This document shows positions 47,871 through 52,639 of a stretch of 64,000 nucleotides of DNA, piece by piece (the stretch's first letter is position 1; the number at the start of each line of letters is the position of its first letter). Made by a program: the position numbers and the translations under genes. The notes beneath the pieces were generated by a model. It searched no databases, was not told the DNA's origin, and saw only the letters and a program-made list of their open reading frames with translations. This DNA comes from Meridianimarinicoccus sp. MJW13 (GTDB lineage: Bacteria > Pseudomonadota > Alphaproteobacteria > Rhodobacterales > Rhodobacteraceae): assembly GCF_014901205.1 (NCBI RefSeq), contig NZ_JACNMU010000002.1:248001-312000 (forward strand), read 5' to 3'.

Positions 47871-47932
47871 GACCAGACACCGCCCATTGATTCTGCGATG
47901 CGGCAATTATGTGGACCAGCTTGGAGGCTTTG

Positions 47933-49222
47933 ATGGCTCTCGATACACATTCGGCGATTGCGGAATATGACGCCCCGCAGAAGGACCTGTACGAAATCGG
48001 CGAGATGCCCCCGATGGGATATGTGCCCAAGCAGATGTACGCTTGGGCCATCCGTCGCGAGCGTCACGGCGAGCCGGACAAGTCCTTCCAGGTCGAGGTC
48101 GTCGATGTTCCGGTCTTGGACAGCCACGAGGTTCTGGTGCTCGTGATGGCCGCCGGCGTGAACTACAACGGCATCTGGGCCGGACTGGGCGTTCCGATCA
48201 GCCCCTTCGACAGCCATGGTGAAGACTACCACATCGCCGGTTCCGATGCCTCGGGCATCGTCTGGGCCGTGGGCGACAAGGTAAAGAGCTGGAAAGTGGG
48301 CGACGAGGTCGTGATCCACTGCAACCAGGACGATGGCGATGACGAGGAATGCAACGGCGGCGACCCGATGTATTCGCCCAGCCAGCGGATCTGGGGTTAT
48401 GAAACGCCGGACGGATCCTTTGCCCAGTTCACCAACGTGCAGGCCCAGCAGCTGCTGCCGCGCCCGCGTCACCTGACCTGGGAAGAAAGCGCCTGCTACA
48501 CGCTGACGCTGGCCACCGCTTACCGGATGCTGTTCGGCCATCACCCGCACGAATTGAAGCCGGGCCAGAACGTTCTGGTCTGGGGCGCCTCGGGCGGTCT
48601 GGGCTCTTTCGCGATCCAGCTGGCCAATGCCGCCGGGGCCAACGCCATCGGCGTGATCTCGGACGAGGACAAGCGCGAGTTTGTCATGAGCCTGGGTGCC
48701 AAGGGCGTTTTGAACCGCAAGGACTTTGACTGCTGGGGTCAACTGCCCACGGTGAACACGCCGGAATACAACACCTGGTTCAAGGAAGCCCGCAAGTTCG
48801 GCAAGGCGATCTGGGACATCACCGGCAAGGGCAACAACGTCGACATGGTGTTCGAACACCCGGGCGAAGCGACTTTCCCGGTCTCCACCTTCGTGGTGAA
48901 GAAGGGCGGCATGGTCGTGATCTGCGCCGGCACCTCGGGCTTCAACTGTACCTTCGACGTGCGTTACATGTGGATGCACCAGAAGCGCCTTCAGGGCTCG
49001 CACTTCGCGCATCTCAAGCAGGCGGCGGCCGCCAACAAGCTGATGATCGAGCGGCGCATCGATCCCTGCATGTCCGAGGTTTTCCCCTGGGAAGAGATCC
49101 CCGACGCCCACATCATGATGCTGCGCAACCAGCACAAGCCGGGCAACATGGCCGTTCTGGTGCAGGCCCCGAAAACCGGGCTGCGCACTTTCGAGGACAC
49201 TCTGGAAGCCGGCAAGAGCTGA
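47933..49222 (+). CDS. ccr: Crotonyl-CoA carboxylase/reductase
   Basis: A 429-residue medium-chain dehydrogenase/reductase. It makes (2S)-ethylmalonyl-CoA from crotonyl-CoA, CO2 and NADPH, the key step of the ethylmalonyl-CoA pathway. MAAGVNYNGIWAGLG (72-86) and HIAGSDASGIVWAVG (100-114) are typical of Ccr, and the NADPH loop is GASGGLGS (218-225). The extended C-terminal half (KKGGMVVICAGTSGFNCTFD) is also characteristic. ATG at 47933 follows GGAGG by seven bases. It is divergent from ecm. Confidence 0.95.
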   Translation: MALDTHSAIAEYDAPQKDLYEIGEMPPMGYVPKQMYAWAIRRERHGEPDKSFQVEVVDVPVLDSHEVLVLVMAAGVNYNGIWAGLGVPISPFDSHGEDYHIAGSDASGIVWAVGDKVKSWKVGDEVVIHCNQDDGDDEECNGGDPMYSPSQRIWGYETPDGSFAQFTNVQAQQLLPRPRHLTWEESACYTLTLATAYRMLFGHHPHELKPGQNVLVWGASGGLGSFAIQLANAAGANAIGVISDEDKREFVMSLGAKGVLNRKDFDCWGQLPTVNTPEYNTWFKEARKFGKAIWDITGKGNNVDMVFEHPGEATFPVSTFVVKKGGMVVICAGTSGFNCTFDVRYMWMHQKRLQGSHFAHLKQAAAANKLMIERRIDPCMSEVFPWEEIPDAHIMMLRNQHKPGNMAVLVQAPKTGLRTFEDTLEAGKS

Positions 49223-49382: not shown

Positions 49383-49397
49383 TTACGGTGTTGTTAA
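49383..49397 (+). promoter_or_regulatory. CtrA-like site with one mismatch
   Basis: TTAC-N7-TTAA (TTACGGTGTTGTTAA) lies 30 bases upstream of the 62-residue gene that precedes luxR. It differs by one base from the TTAA-N7-TTAA consensus of the cell-cycle regulator CtrA. Confidence 0.35.
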
Positions 49398-49426
49398 TGA
49401 ATTCTTCAAGTCTTGGGGACGGATCC

Positions 49427-49615
49427 ATGGATGCAGATTGGATGATCGATGTTCTGGCAGACCTGAAGAAGTTTGCGCGCCACAACCAGTTTTTGGAGTT
49501 GGCGGAGCAACTTGATGATACCATGATGGTGGCCGCTACGGAAATTCGGCGTAACAAGGTCAGGGACGTATGTCGGGCACGGGGTCATGAAGGAAAAGCT
49601 GGAGACGCTCATTAG
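49427..49615 (+). CDS. 62-residue protein overlapping luxR
   Basis: A small helical protein (MDADWMIDVLADLKKFARHN, then LELAEQLDDTMMVAATEIRR). Its last 29 bases overlap the start of luxR in another frame, so the two are likely to be translationally coupled. GGGGAC lies upstream of the ATG. The size and helical character could suit a protein partner of the LuxR protein. I do not recognise a family and this is inference from position. Confidence 0.65.
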   Translation: MDADWMIDVLADLKKFARHNQFLELAEQLDDTMMVAATEIRRNKVRDVCRARGHEGKAGDAH

Positions 49616-50300
49616 CAGCCTGGAAGAGGCAACGACACGGGGAGATCTGCAGGATGTCGTTGTCAGGCTTCGCGATCTCTACGATGTGGATCACGTTGTT
49701 TACCATTCGGTCAACCGGGCTGGAGAACAATACGCAGCACTCACCTATGACGCCTCATGGGTGGATCGCTATATCGAGCGGGACTATGCGCGCATCGATC
49801 CGGTGGTGCAGGGCTGCTATCAGCGGTTCAACCCGGTGGATTGGAAACAGCTGGACTGGACCGGCGCCAAGGCACGGAACTTCATGGGCGAGGCTGCTGA
49901 CGCCGGGATCGGAAACCAGGGGCTTTCGGTGCCGATCCGCGGACCAAACGGACAGTTCGCCCTGTTTACGGCCTCCAGCAATGCAAGCGACAGGACCTGG
50001 GCGAATTACAGCCGGTCCAATGTATCGGATCTGATTCTCGTGGCCCATTTCATCAATCAGAAAGCCCTTGAGATCGACAACGGCACCGATGTTCAGAAAT
50101 CGGCCAGCCTGTCGCCCCGCGAGATCGACACGCTCAGCCTACTTGCAGTGGGCTACTCCCGCGCACAAGCCGCCGAAAGCCTGTGTATCTCGGAACACAC
50201 GCTGCGGGTCTATATCGAATCCGCGCGGTTCAAACTGGGAGCGCAGAACACGACCCACGCCGTCGCCCGCGCCATCGCCCGCGGCCTGATTGTCGTCTGA
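49587..50300 (+). CDS. LuxR-family autoinducer-binding regulator
   Basis: A 237-residue quorum-sensing regulator. The N-terminal ligand-binding domain carries the conserved Trp58, Tyr62, Asp71 and Pro72 (SWVDRYIERDYARIDP) expected to contact an acyl-homoserine lactone, with Trp86 nearby. The C-terminal helix-turn-helix (LSPREIDTLSLLAVGYSRAQAAESL to RFKLGAQNTTHAVARAI in pieces, about 172-230) is complete. Translation may depend on the overlapping upstream gene. luxI follows 104 bases later in the same direction. Confidence 0.92.
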   Translation: MKEKLETLISSLEEATTRGDLQDVVVRLRDLYDVDHVVYHSVNRAGEQYAALTYDASWVDRYIERDYARIDPVVQGCYQRFNPVDWKQLDWTGAKARNFMGEAADAGIGNQGLSVPIRGPNGQFALFTASSNASDRTWANYSRSNVSDLILVAHFINQKALEIDNGTDVQKSASLSPREIDTLSLLAVGYSRAQAAESLCISEHTLRVYIESARFKLGAQNTTHAVARAIARGLIVV

Positions 50301-50308
50301 ACGAAGTT

Positions 50309-50324
50309 TTAACATTTCGTTAAC
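50309..50324 (+). promoter_or_regulatory. CtrA-type site before luxI (TTAA-N7-TTAAC)
   Basis: TTAACATTTCGTTAAC is an exact TTAA-N7-TTAAC match, the CtrA consensus. It abuts the lux-box candidate at 50324. A second site with a six-base spacer (TTAACTCTGGTTAA, 50341-50354) follows on the other side of the palindrome. Confidence 0.6.
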
Positions 50325-50339
50325 GCACCGTACGGTGCG
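50324..50339. promoter_or_regulatory. Lux-box candidate before luxI
   Basis: CGCACCGTACGGTGCG is a perfect 16-base palindrome, 65 bases upstream of the luxI ATG. Its placement and dyad symmetry fit a binding site for the LuxR protein encoded next door. Confidence 0.6.
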
Positions 50340-50404
50340 ATTAACTCTGGTTAACCAGCGGTTGAACACCCTGAGCCCGTCAACACAGCGGACTGGGGAT
50401 AAAC

Positions 50405-51040
50405 ATGCTGAGATACTTGTTTTCGAACGAACTGAACCATCACCCGAAGCTGCGCGATTCCATGTTTCAGGATCGCGCCGATCAGTTCCACACGCGTTTG
50501 GGCTGGGATGTATCCATCGACGATCATGGCGAGGAGCGTGACGAATACGACGCGATAAACCCGCTCTACGTGATCTGGGAAGAGCCTGACGGCAGCCATG
50601 GCGGCTCGATGCGGTTCCTGCCCACGTCGGGGCCGAACATGCTCGACGATCACTTTCGCAACCTTCTGGACGGGGCCCGGATCCGCAATTCGCAGATCTG
50701 GGAGTGCACCCGCTTCTGCCTTGCGCGCAACGCTGCTCCTCAGGTGTCGGCAGCGCTGATGCTGGGCGGCTGCGAGGTCGGCCTGGGCTTCGATCTGACC
50801 TTCTCGATCGGGGTGTTCGATGCCCGCATGGTGCGCATCTATCGCCGCCTGGGCTGGTCGCCGCTGGTGGTGGGCACGCAAGGCGAGGGCCGCGAGGCGA
50901 TCAGCGCGGGCTTGTGGAGTTTCTCGGAAAGCCGCGCGGAAACCCTGTGTGACAAGGCCGGTATCCCGCGGGCCCAGTCGCGCCTGTGGTTCCACCTGTC
51001 GCGGCATCAGGCGCGGATCGAACTGGCGCACACCGCCTGA
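50405..51040 (+). CDS. Acyl-homoserine-lactone synthase (LuxI family)
   Basis: A 211-residue LuxI-type synthase. The invariant residues are present: Arg24, Phe28, Trp34, Asp46, Asp49, Arg70, Glu100 and Arg103 (WECTRFC). The protein makes an N-acyl-homoserine lactone from SAM and acyl-ACP; the acyl chain cannot be predicted. GGGGA lies upstream of the ATG. It follows luxR in tandem, with a lux-box candidate and CtrA-type sites in the gap, so positive feedback with cell-cycle input is plausible. Confidence 0.93.
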   Translation: MLRYLFSNELNHHPKLRDSMFQDRADQFHTRLGWDVSIDDHGEERDEYDAINPLYVIWEEPDGSHGGSMRFLPTSGPNMLDDHFRNLLDGARIRNSQIWECTRFCLARNAAPQVSAALMLGGCEVGLGFDLTFSIGVFDARMVRIYRRLGWSPLVVGTQGEGREAISAGLWSFSESRAETLCDKAGIPRAQSRLWFHLSRHQARIELAHTA

Positions 51041-51079: not shown

Positions 51080-52639
51080 ATGAATGCCGTGACCGATATT
51101 GTCCTGTCCGAAGATCAGGATGCCGCTTTTGCGCGGGTGACCGAAGTCCTTGCCGCCGCCGGGATTGACCTGGCAGGCGGGGGGCTTGGCCCCCCGGCGT
51201 CCAAGGGCGATCAGACGCTGGCCGTTCTGGGCAAGGCGGGTTCGGGCAAGACCGTGCTTCTGGCAAAGCTCTACCACGCCATGGAGGCCGCGGGCGTCGA
51301 GATCGTCTCGGGCGATTACGAGGGCCGGCGCCGCAAGGAGCGGCGCACCCTTGCCATTCTGGCGCCCACCAACAAGGCGGCCTCGGTCCTGCGCAACCGG
51401 GGCGTTCCGGCGACGACGATCCACCGGGTGCTCTACACGCCGGTCTATGATCCCGAATACGAGAAAATCGCCGAATGGCTGGCAGGGCGCGGCCCGCGGC
51501 CGGAAACCGAGGTTCTGGACGACACCGCGCTGGACCGCGCCAAGGCGTTTTACGACCTGCACAAGTCGGTGCCGGGGGCGCTGGCTTCGGCCGGATTGCG
51601 CGGATCGGACTTCATCACTGGCTGGAAACGCCGCGAAGAGCCGCTGGACATCGGATTCGTCGATGAAAGTTCGATGCTGGACGCGCGACAATTTGACGAC
51701 CTGAAAGAAATTTTTCCAACTTTGGTGCTGTTTGGCGACCCTGCGCAGCTGGCGCCGGTGGGACAATCGGGCGAAATGGTCTTCGACAAGCTGCCGGAAC
51801 CGCGCCAACTGGTGCTGAGTCGCATTCACCGACAGGAACGGGACAACCCGATTCTCGATCTTGCCCACGCGTTGAGTGATCCGGACGTGGGATTTGAACA
51901 GTTCGAGAGGATGATAGACGATGCCGCCCGCCGCGACGATCGCGTTGTGGTTGCGGGAAGGGTCGAGGCCGATCTGATGGCGCGCTCGCCGGTGCTGGTC
52001 TGGCGCAACGCCACCCGCGTGCGGCTGATCCAGGCGTTCCGCAAGGCGCATGACGCGCCCGACGACAGCCTGTTGCCCGGCGAACCGCTGATCTGCGACG
52101 GGCTGGAACTGCCCCTGAAGCATCGCAAGAAGCGGCTGGACCTTGAGGCACGGGGACTGATCAAGGGCGCGCAGGTGATCTACCTGGGGCAGGGGCGCCG
52201 TCCGGGGTTTTCCCGGTTGCATGTGCTGGGCGCGCCCGAGCCGCAGGTCTCGGCGGCTTCGATCATCAAGATCGAACATCCCGATGAGGAAGAACCCTTC
52301 ATCCCCTTCGCGGCCCGCATGGGGGCGGCCTTCCTGCACGGCGCGGCGGTAACCATCCACAAGGCGCAGGGCTCGCAATGGTCCGAGGTTCAGGTCTTCG
52401 GACCCGACATCTATGCCGCCTATCGCGCGGGGCGAACCGAGGCGGGGCTGCCGCTGTGGAAGCGGTTGGCCTATGTGGCGATCACCCGCGCCGAGACGCG
52501 GCTGCACTGGGTAATGCGGTATCGGCTGGGCAAGCCCACGGTGCCGCTGGGTACCGATGATCTGACGGTGCCGCCAGCGCCCGACCTGATCCGCGAGATC
52601 GACCCGACCCTATCGCTGGAACATCCGGAAGGCGGCTGA
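51080..52639 (+). CDS. RecD/Dda-like SF1 helicase or ATP-dependent exonuclease
   Basis: A 519-residue helicase with Walker A GKAGSGKT (51-58), motif Ia LAPTNKAA, Walker B as FVDESSM (instead of DEAS), motif III GDPAQLAPVG, and motifs V and VI TIHKAQGSQW and YVAITRAE near the C-terminus. This is the order found in RecD2/Dda-type 5'-to-3' helicases, without the long N-terminal extension of RecD2. Its role in repair or replication is likely but unspecified. The 3' end overlaps the convergent TIGR02186 gene by 30 bases. A small hairpin (CCGGAC/GTCCGG) lies just before the ATG, which lacks a clear ribosome site. Confidence 0.82.
   Translation: MNAVTDIVLSEDQDAAFARVTEVLAAAGIDLAGGGLGPPASKGDQTLAVLGKAGSGKTVLLAKLYHAMEAAGVEIVSGDYEGRRRKERRTLAILAPTNKAASVLRNRGVPATTIHRVLYTPVYDPEYEKIAEWLAGRGPRPETEVLDDTALDRAKAFYDLHKSVPGALASAGLRGSDFITGWKRREEPLDIGFVDESSMLDARQFDDLKEIFPTLVLFGDPAQLAPVGQSGEMVFDKLPEPRQLVLSRIHRQERDNPILDLAHALSDPDVGFEQFERMIDDAARRDDRVVVAGRVEADLMARSPVLVWRNATRVRLIQAFRKAHDAPDDSLLPGEPLICDGLELPLKHRKKRLDLEARGLIKGAQVIYLGQGRRPGFSRLHVLGAPEPQVSAASIIKIEHPDEEEPFIPFAARMGAAFLHGAAVTIHKAQGSQWSEVQVFGPDIYAAYRAGRTEAGLPLWKRLAYVAITRAETRLHWVMRYRLGKPTVPLGTDDLTVPPAPDLIREIDPTLSLEHPEGG

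Follow-up and report, generated by a model that had tools for sequence, protein, structure and literature searches.

The window, meaning the whole 64,000-nucleotide (64-kb) stretch of DNA analysed here, belongs to the 4.02 Mb genome of Meridianimarinicoccus sp. MJW13 and carries a luxR-luxI pair on its forward strand. The luxR gene (49587-50300, +) encodes an autoinducer-binding GerE-type regulator (Pfam PF03472 and PF00196), and luxI (50405-51040, +) encodes an acyl-homoserine-lactone synthase (PF00765). The two are separated by a spacer of 104 bp. A gene of the zinc-binding dehydrogenase family (47909-49222, +) lies upstream, in the slot of the crotonyl-CoA reductase, and an AAA/UvrD-like helicase gene (51080-52639, +) follows. 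Roseobacter luxRI pairs with a crotonyl-CoA reductase before them and a helicase after them have been described as the 'B topology' (Cude and Buchan, PMC3824088), and the locus in the window is of this topology, with the flanking genes assigned by Pfam family. The table of that source places in class B1 the pairs DSHI_2852/2851 (luxR2I2) of D. shibae and RKLH11_1933/260 (ssbRI, the topology-B pair of KLH11), together with loci of P. gallaeciensis. The markers of the topology are widespread: in a short-motif check of the best 80 of 586 named relatives, 77 had the upstream marker and 78 the downstream one. We take the P. gallaeciensis B1 loci to be pgaRI. This identification is in keeping with PMC12363192, which gives the D. 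shibae homologue of pgaRI1 as the pair that falls in CtrA-pathway mutants. The genome containing the window encodes both CtrA (NF045991) and a ChpT-type protein (PF10090), each above cut-off.

Several short elements are packed into the spacer. Nine nucleotides past the luxR stop codon begins TTAACATTTCGTTAAC (50309-50324), which agrees with TTAAC-N5-GTTAAC at 11 of 11 fixed bases and, by this sequence rule, is a candidate full CtrA site. It equals the D. shibae CtrA motif given in PMC7232146, also fits the Caulobacter full-site form TTAA-N7-TTAAC, and is the sole exact TTAA-N7-TTAAC within the window. Its last base, the C at 50324, is shared with a perfect 16-bp palindrome, CGCACCGTACGGTGCG (50324-50339, centre 50331.5), which from its sequence and from shuffles is a candidate LuxR-type operator. 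The initial annotation had pointed to both elements, and both are present as it described them. The core of the palindrome is CGTACG (50329-50334), an instance of a CGNNCG word conserved in the family (72 anchored luxI spacers). For comparison, a lux box is defined as a palindromic element of 18-22 bp (PMC3907830); the palindrome of the window is perfect over 16 bp, and its symmetry outside CGNNCG is not conserved in the 72 rows. On the other side stands the pair TTAA-CTCTGG-TTAA (50341-50354, +; with the following CC, to 50356). This TTAA-N6-TTAA had been put forward as a second CtrA-type site. The pair does exist, but its N6 spacing departs from the rule that the left element follows, and as a full site on the plus strand it scores 3.9 bits; within the pair, only TTAACC (50351-50356, +), a CtrA-type half-site widespread in luxI promoters (86-spacer counts), qualifies. 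Further downstream, CACCCT (50367-50372, +) has the form CAnnnT and is the predicted -10 element, on the basis of spacing in the luxI rows and in ctrA promoters.

The left site and the palindrome are both rare in randomized sequence. The spacer, together with the final 15 bases of luxR (119 bases in all), was dinucleotide-shuffled 5000 times: TTAAC-N5-GTTAAC never reached 11/11 (10 matches were reached in 16 shuffles), and a perfect 16-bp palindrome arose in four shuffles. Across the genome, TTAA-N7-TTAAC has eight matches in six distinct places compared with five for the reversed pattern, and the palindrome with at most two mismatches occurs in three places compared with six control matches per strand. 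That is, neither motif is enriched genome-wide over its backward control, so the unusual part is their placement. A palindrome regulon was considered and dropped, as the other near-palindromes (C15:116892 and C15:312479, two mismatches) lie inside open reading frames and suggest none. A further exact TTAA-N7-TTAAC of the genome (L032, G000:C12:131453-131469), readable on both strands, sits at the 3' end of an open reading frame. The frame ending there presumably encodes ribosomal protein S20 (rpsT), and rpsT often adjoins dnaA.

Conservation was read from 93 sequences: the window, the best 80 of 586 named relatives and 12 others. Removing four without an upstream LuxR helix motif (L106, L125, L008, L019) and the near-duplicates L081, L111 and L123 left 86 spacers. 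Each was anchored on its most TTAACC-like word 39-80 nt before luxI, which gave 73 usable rows after the exclusion of 13 of the 86 with a poor anchor; one more, with short upstream sequence, was left out of the 72-row counts. Since the anchor was picked by its letters, its own conservation was counted separately over the 86 spacers. Here, TTAAC falls 44-66 nt before luxI in 51 (shuffle mean 1.97) and TTAACC in 35 (shuffle mean 0.53).

In the anchored rows, CGNNCG stands at -22 (22 nt upstream of the TTAAC-like anchor) in 50 of 72, against 8 rows for the runner-up offset, and the CGTACG of the window is positioned exactly there. A -10-like TA at +15/+16 is found in 44 rows, each other offset from +6 to +29 reaching at most five. 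TTAA at -31 occurs in 20 rows, and every other offset from -34 to +23 (anchor excepted) in fewer than six. Outside CG-NN-CG, dyad symmetry is at chance level in the 72 rows; base pairs 8.5-12.5 bp from the centre, in particular, are complementary at the chance rate. To judge from these letters, the feature conserved across the spacers is the palindrome core, not the perfect palindrome. Aligning the luxI promoters of relatives, a check proposed in the initial annotation, bore out the CGNNCG core, TTAACC and the -10-like word, but neither the perfect palindrome nor the exact left site. In addition, CGNNCG at -22 was absent from all 35 ctrA promoters and all 62 luxR promoters scored, so the core is not a general companion of CtrA.

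Left-type full sites with at least 10 of 11 matches occur anywhere in the spacer in seven of 86 cases (0.08 in shuffles); the luxR side holds six of these, and the one in L082 occupies the right-hand position. Exact full sites are also found in Shimia thalassica (L056) and Puniceibacterium antarcticum (L092), and in L053, L056 and L092 the left-type site incorporates the TAA stop codon of luxR. In some other genera, a distal CtrA half is read as TTAG at -11 (11 of 72 rows) or TGAC at -10 (six rows). Among the six genus relatives of the window, none has the exact left site (best, 9/11) or a perfect 16-bp palindrome (L046 reaches 12). The TTAA-N27-TTAA frame enclosing the core (50320-50354, +), in full TTAA-N5-CGNNCG-N16-TTAA, is kept in five of the six; L049 retains only a CGAACG core. 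The N6 right pair is common, within the genus, only to the window and L046 (the same genome as L002). A search for the composite at other genes had likewise been proposed. The strict form TTAA-N5-CGYRCG-N16-TTAAC has seven matches in 198 family genomes, one per genus, compared with five for its backward control, and the number of matches by itself therefore proves nothing. The argument is where they lie: six of the seven, the window included, have a LuxR helix motif on one side and a LuxI motif on the other, and no LuxI motif accompanies the seventh (L129).

CtrA-type sites were scored with a matrix built from 35 ctrA promoters (30 drawn from the 54 family genomes that gave a match, and five from six further genus relatives, the partial L045 being omitted), each anchored on the TTAAC having the best GTAAC before it. 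Their consensus is GTAAC-N5-GTTAACCAT, with C at +15 in 80%, A at +16 in 94% and T at +20 in 86%. Both strands were scanned, and the matrix gives its own sites at least 14.8 bits. Matches of at least 10 bits anywhere in the spacer occur in 25 of 86 cases (0.58 in shuffles); the best match lies at the right-hand position in 13 of these and elsewhere in 12. In other intergenic stretches of the same loci, without luxR upstream regions, one of 93 reaches 10 bits and none 13. An intergenic control that gave 49 of 196 at 10 bits was discarded because it included luxR upstream regions. In the spacer scan of the window, the matches over 3 bits, besides the right pair at 3.9, are the left site (7.9 bits on the plus strand, 10.1 on the minus), overlapping plus-strand readings at 50298 (7.9) and 50330 (7.7), and the right half-site (9.4 on the minus strand, 6.0 on the plus).

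The distance from TTAACC to the -10-like word is nearly equal in the luxI spacers and in the 35 ctrA promoters, which favours a CtrA-type promoter and disfavours a plain -35. A sigma-70 scan of the spacer found no site. In sigma-70 promoters, the -35 and -10 elements lie about 17 apart. A separate promoter behind the left CtrA-type site was also considered and rejected, as neither CAnnnT nor TAnnnT follows its second TTAA at +15 or +16. As a side observation, a word resembling CAACTTTAGGTTG recurs ahead of the CtrA-type site in many ctrA upstream regions (L136-L164, L039-L044). It is an inverted repeat that seems to run over the end of the preceding gene, perhaps as a terminator or an operator.

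The region before luxR holds a further conserved feature, a small ORF of 62 amino acids (49427-49615, +) that overlaps the luxR start. The core pattern of its product, DWILDVLADLKTFA..NGL..LAEQLDDT, is present in 75 of 76 loci; L056, the remaining one, carries it with a single residue changed. Differences by codon position (0.31, 0.22 and 0.59) speak for a coding gene. Searches against Pfam and NCBIfam returned no match at E up to 1; the product is predicted to form a helical hairpin, for which a fold search of the PDB found no match at E 0.001 or better. It is possible that the product is a modulator of LuxR. Directly before the small ORF, about 1000 nt upstream of luxI, a CtrA-type full site of at least 13 bits is found in 62 of 76 loci (L046-L125). 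For topology-B loci, this frequency sits badly with the published view that CtrA sites at quorum-sensing genes are scattered and evolved repeatedly across the Alphaproteobacteria (PMC4046655). Over 78 loci (505 kb), matches of at least 13 bits number 83, of which 72 lie before luxR, 11 in the spacer and none elsewhere; at 10 bits or more, the corresponding figures are 100, 27 and one. The luxR-side site comes immediately before the small-ORF start and behind a TAnAnT word resembling a -10, a geometry unlike that of luxI, and CtrA bound there could act, by this prediction, as a repressor. In the window, the site is degenerate (49383-49402, +; 6.1 bits), and just one of the seven loci of its genus has a site of at least 13 bits at this place.

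Published orthologues are split on whether luxI is controlled by CtrA or by its cognate LuxR. Expression of D. shibae luxR2I2 drops in a ctrA mutant (Wang et al. 2014, PMC4046655), and pgaI of P. inhibens drops in a pgaR mutant (PMC5429656). On the other hand, P. inhibens pgaRI shows no change in ctrA, cckA and chpT mutants (PMC12363192), and ssbI is not activated by SsbR (PMC3907830). For KLH11, the link by which LuxR reaches the CtrA pathway has been described as unidentified.

How do these elements compare with known promoters? The window resembles D. shibae luxR2I2 in being a topology-B locus with predicted CtrA sites, but differs from it in that the two perfect CtrA sites of D. shibae are reported in the luxR2 promoter; the available text of PMC4046655 describes for D. 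shibae no operator flanked by CtrA sites before luxI. The same source mentions one CtrA site ahead of luxI in Octadecabacter antarcticus. As in Ruegeria ssaI and Rhodopseudomonas rpaI, the element lies between luxR and luxI. In rpaI, it was proposed from lux-box-like inverted repeats; in ssaI, it is required for activation by LuxR, and the required sequence is reported to be no inverted repeat and to differ from known lux boxes. Unlike that of ssaI, the candidate operator in the window has perfect dyad symmetry around a CGNNCG core, and CtrA-type sites lie next to it. CtrA-activated promoters of Caulobacter (PMC4287350) similarly carry a full TTAA-N7-TTAA or a half TTAA near -35, and a TTAA-N6-TTAA variant is reported at podJ. 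The CtrA partners named in the available text of that source are SciP, MucR, DnaA and GcrA, with no LuxR-type operator among them. More broadly, in the openly licensed literature, to the extent of its available excerpts, we found no account in which CtrA sites flank a LuxR operator at luxI.

We propose that luxI has a promoter of its own that joins a LuxR-type operator with a CtrA input, a prediction from sequence that we hold to be about evenly balanced between right and wrong. The 104-bp spacer would be this promoter, with CACCCT as its -10 and a transcription start that we infer near 50379. The palindrome, centred some 47.5 bp upstream of the start, would be bound by a regulator of the GerE family, most probably the cognate LuxR carrying its acyl-homoserine lactone, which would probably activate luxI rather than repress it. 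CtrA would act through TTAACC (about -28 to -23), whose distance to the -10 is close to that seen in ctrA promoters. In this species, a second entry for CtrA would be the exact full site that borders the operator on its upstream side (about -70 to -55). The distal CtrA half of some other genera overlaps the right arm of the operator, and there LuxR and CtrA would be expected either to compete or to cooperate. The idea of the initial annotation, that LuxR autoinduction and CtrA control merge in one element, is upheld to the extent that candidate sites for both meet in what looks like a conserved luxI promoter. Against it stand the lack of the perfect palindrome and the exact left site in the genus relatives, dyad symmetry at chance outside CGNNCG, the low score of the right pair as a full site, the 12 of 25 spacer matches away from the right-hand position and the disagreement among orthologues.

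Other readings share parts of this evidence. One retains LuxR-type control alone, with TTAACC and the flanking TTAA words serving either as AT-rich pieces of the promoter or as the operator's outer arms, and no direct role for CtrA. We regard it as possible, if on the doubtful side. The constancy of P. inhibens pgaRI in CtrA-pathway mutants (PMC12363192) speaks for it, as does the poor score of the right pair as a full site. Moreover, TTAA at -31 mirrors -8 around the core, as operator arms would; yet complementarity at 8.5-12.5 bp from the centre does not exceed chance, and on this ground we set aside outer arms as the main reading of these words. Nor does the spacing suit a sigma-70 -35: the end of TTAACC and the -10-like TA are 9-10 bases apart, which is too short for such an element and nearly the spacing of ctrA promoters. 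Finally, this reading has to accommodate a left site with all 11 fixed bases, unmatched in 5000 shuffles, and a D. shibae luxR2I2 pair that requires CtrA (PMC4046655).

The opposite reading gives control to CtrA alone. CGNNCG would then be bound by another protein, such as a SciP-like partner of CtrA or a GerE-type orphan regulator, and luxI would not respond to its cognate LuxR. It fits the report that SsbR does not activate ssbI (PMC3907830), the lack of conserved dyad symmetry at the operator and the position of Caulobacter SciP sites upstream of CtrA sites (PMC4287350). We consider it unlikely, however: a general CtrA partner should mark ctrA and luxR promoters too, where the core is missing at -22, the Caulobacter SciP motif GCGNC is, by eye, unlike the core, and pgaI drops in the P. 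inhibens pgaR mutant (PMC5429656). Even less probable, in our view, is that the arrangement in the window arose largely by chance, the perfect palindrome and the exact TTAA-N7-TTAAC being accidents of substitution in an ordinary luxI promoter. Both exact features are indeed missing from the genus relatives, neither motif is enriched genome-wide, and some left sites elsewhere make use of the luxR stop codon. The shuffle tests argue against it, as do the positional conservation of core, TTAACC and -10, and the excess of full sites over shuffles in the 86 spacers, luxR-side in six and right-hand in L082.

Going beyond the composite promoter that we favour, and with considerable doubt, we suggest a history for it. 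The ancestral topology-B luxI promoter of the Roseobacteraceae may have been one in which the overlap of LuxR operator and CtrA site acted as an AND or an either-or gate of cell density and CtrA. The CtrA input before luxR would have weakened in the genus, as the single strong site among its seven loci suggests, and would have been restored in this species by a full site next to the luxI operator, with the conserved small ORF as a third, dedicated layer.

Wiring between CtrA and quorum sensing is already known in the Rhodobacterales, and the candidate composite luxI promoter is a variant of it. If the promoter binds both proteins, it would provide a direct, testable junction of LuxR and CtrA. 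The small ORF ahead of luxR may offer a second handle on LuxR control. If our reading is true, a family-wide motif would be available for finding this junction, and turnover of its sites could explain why orthologues differ in their dependence on CtrA.
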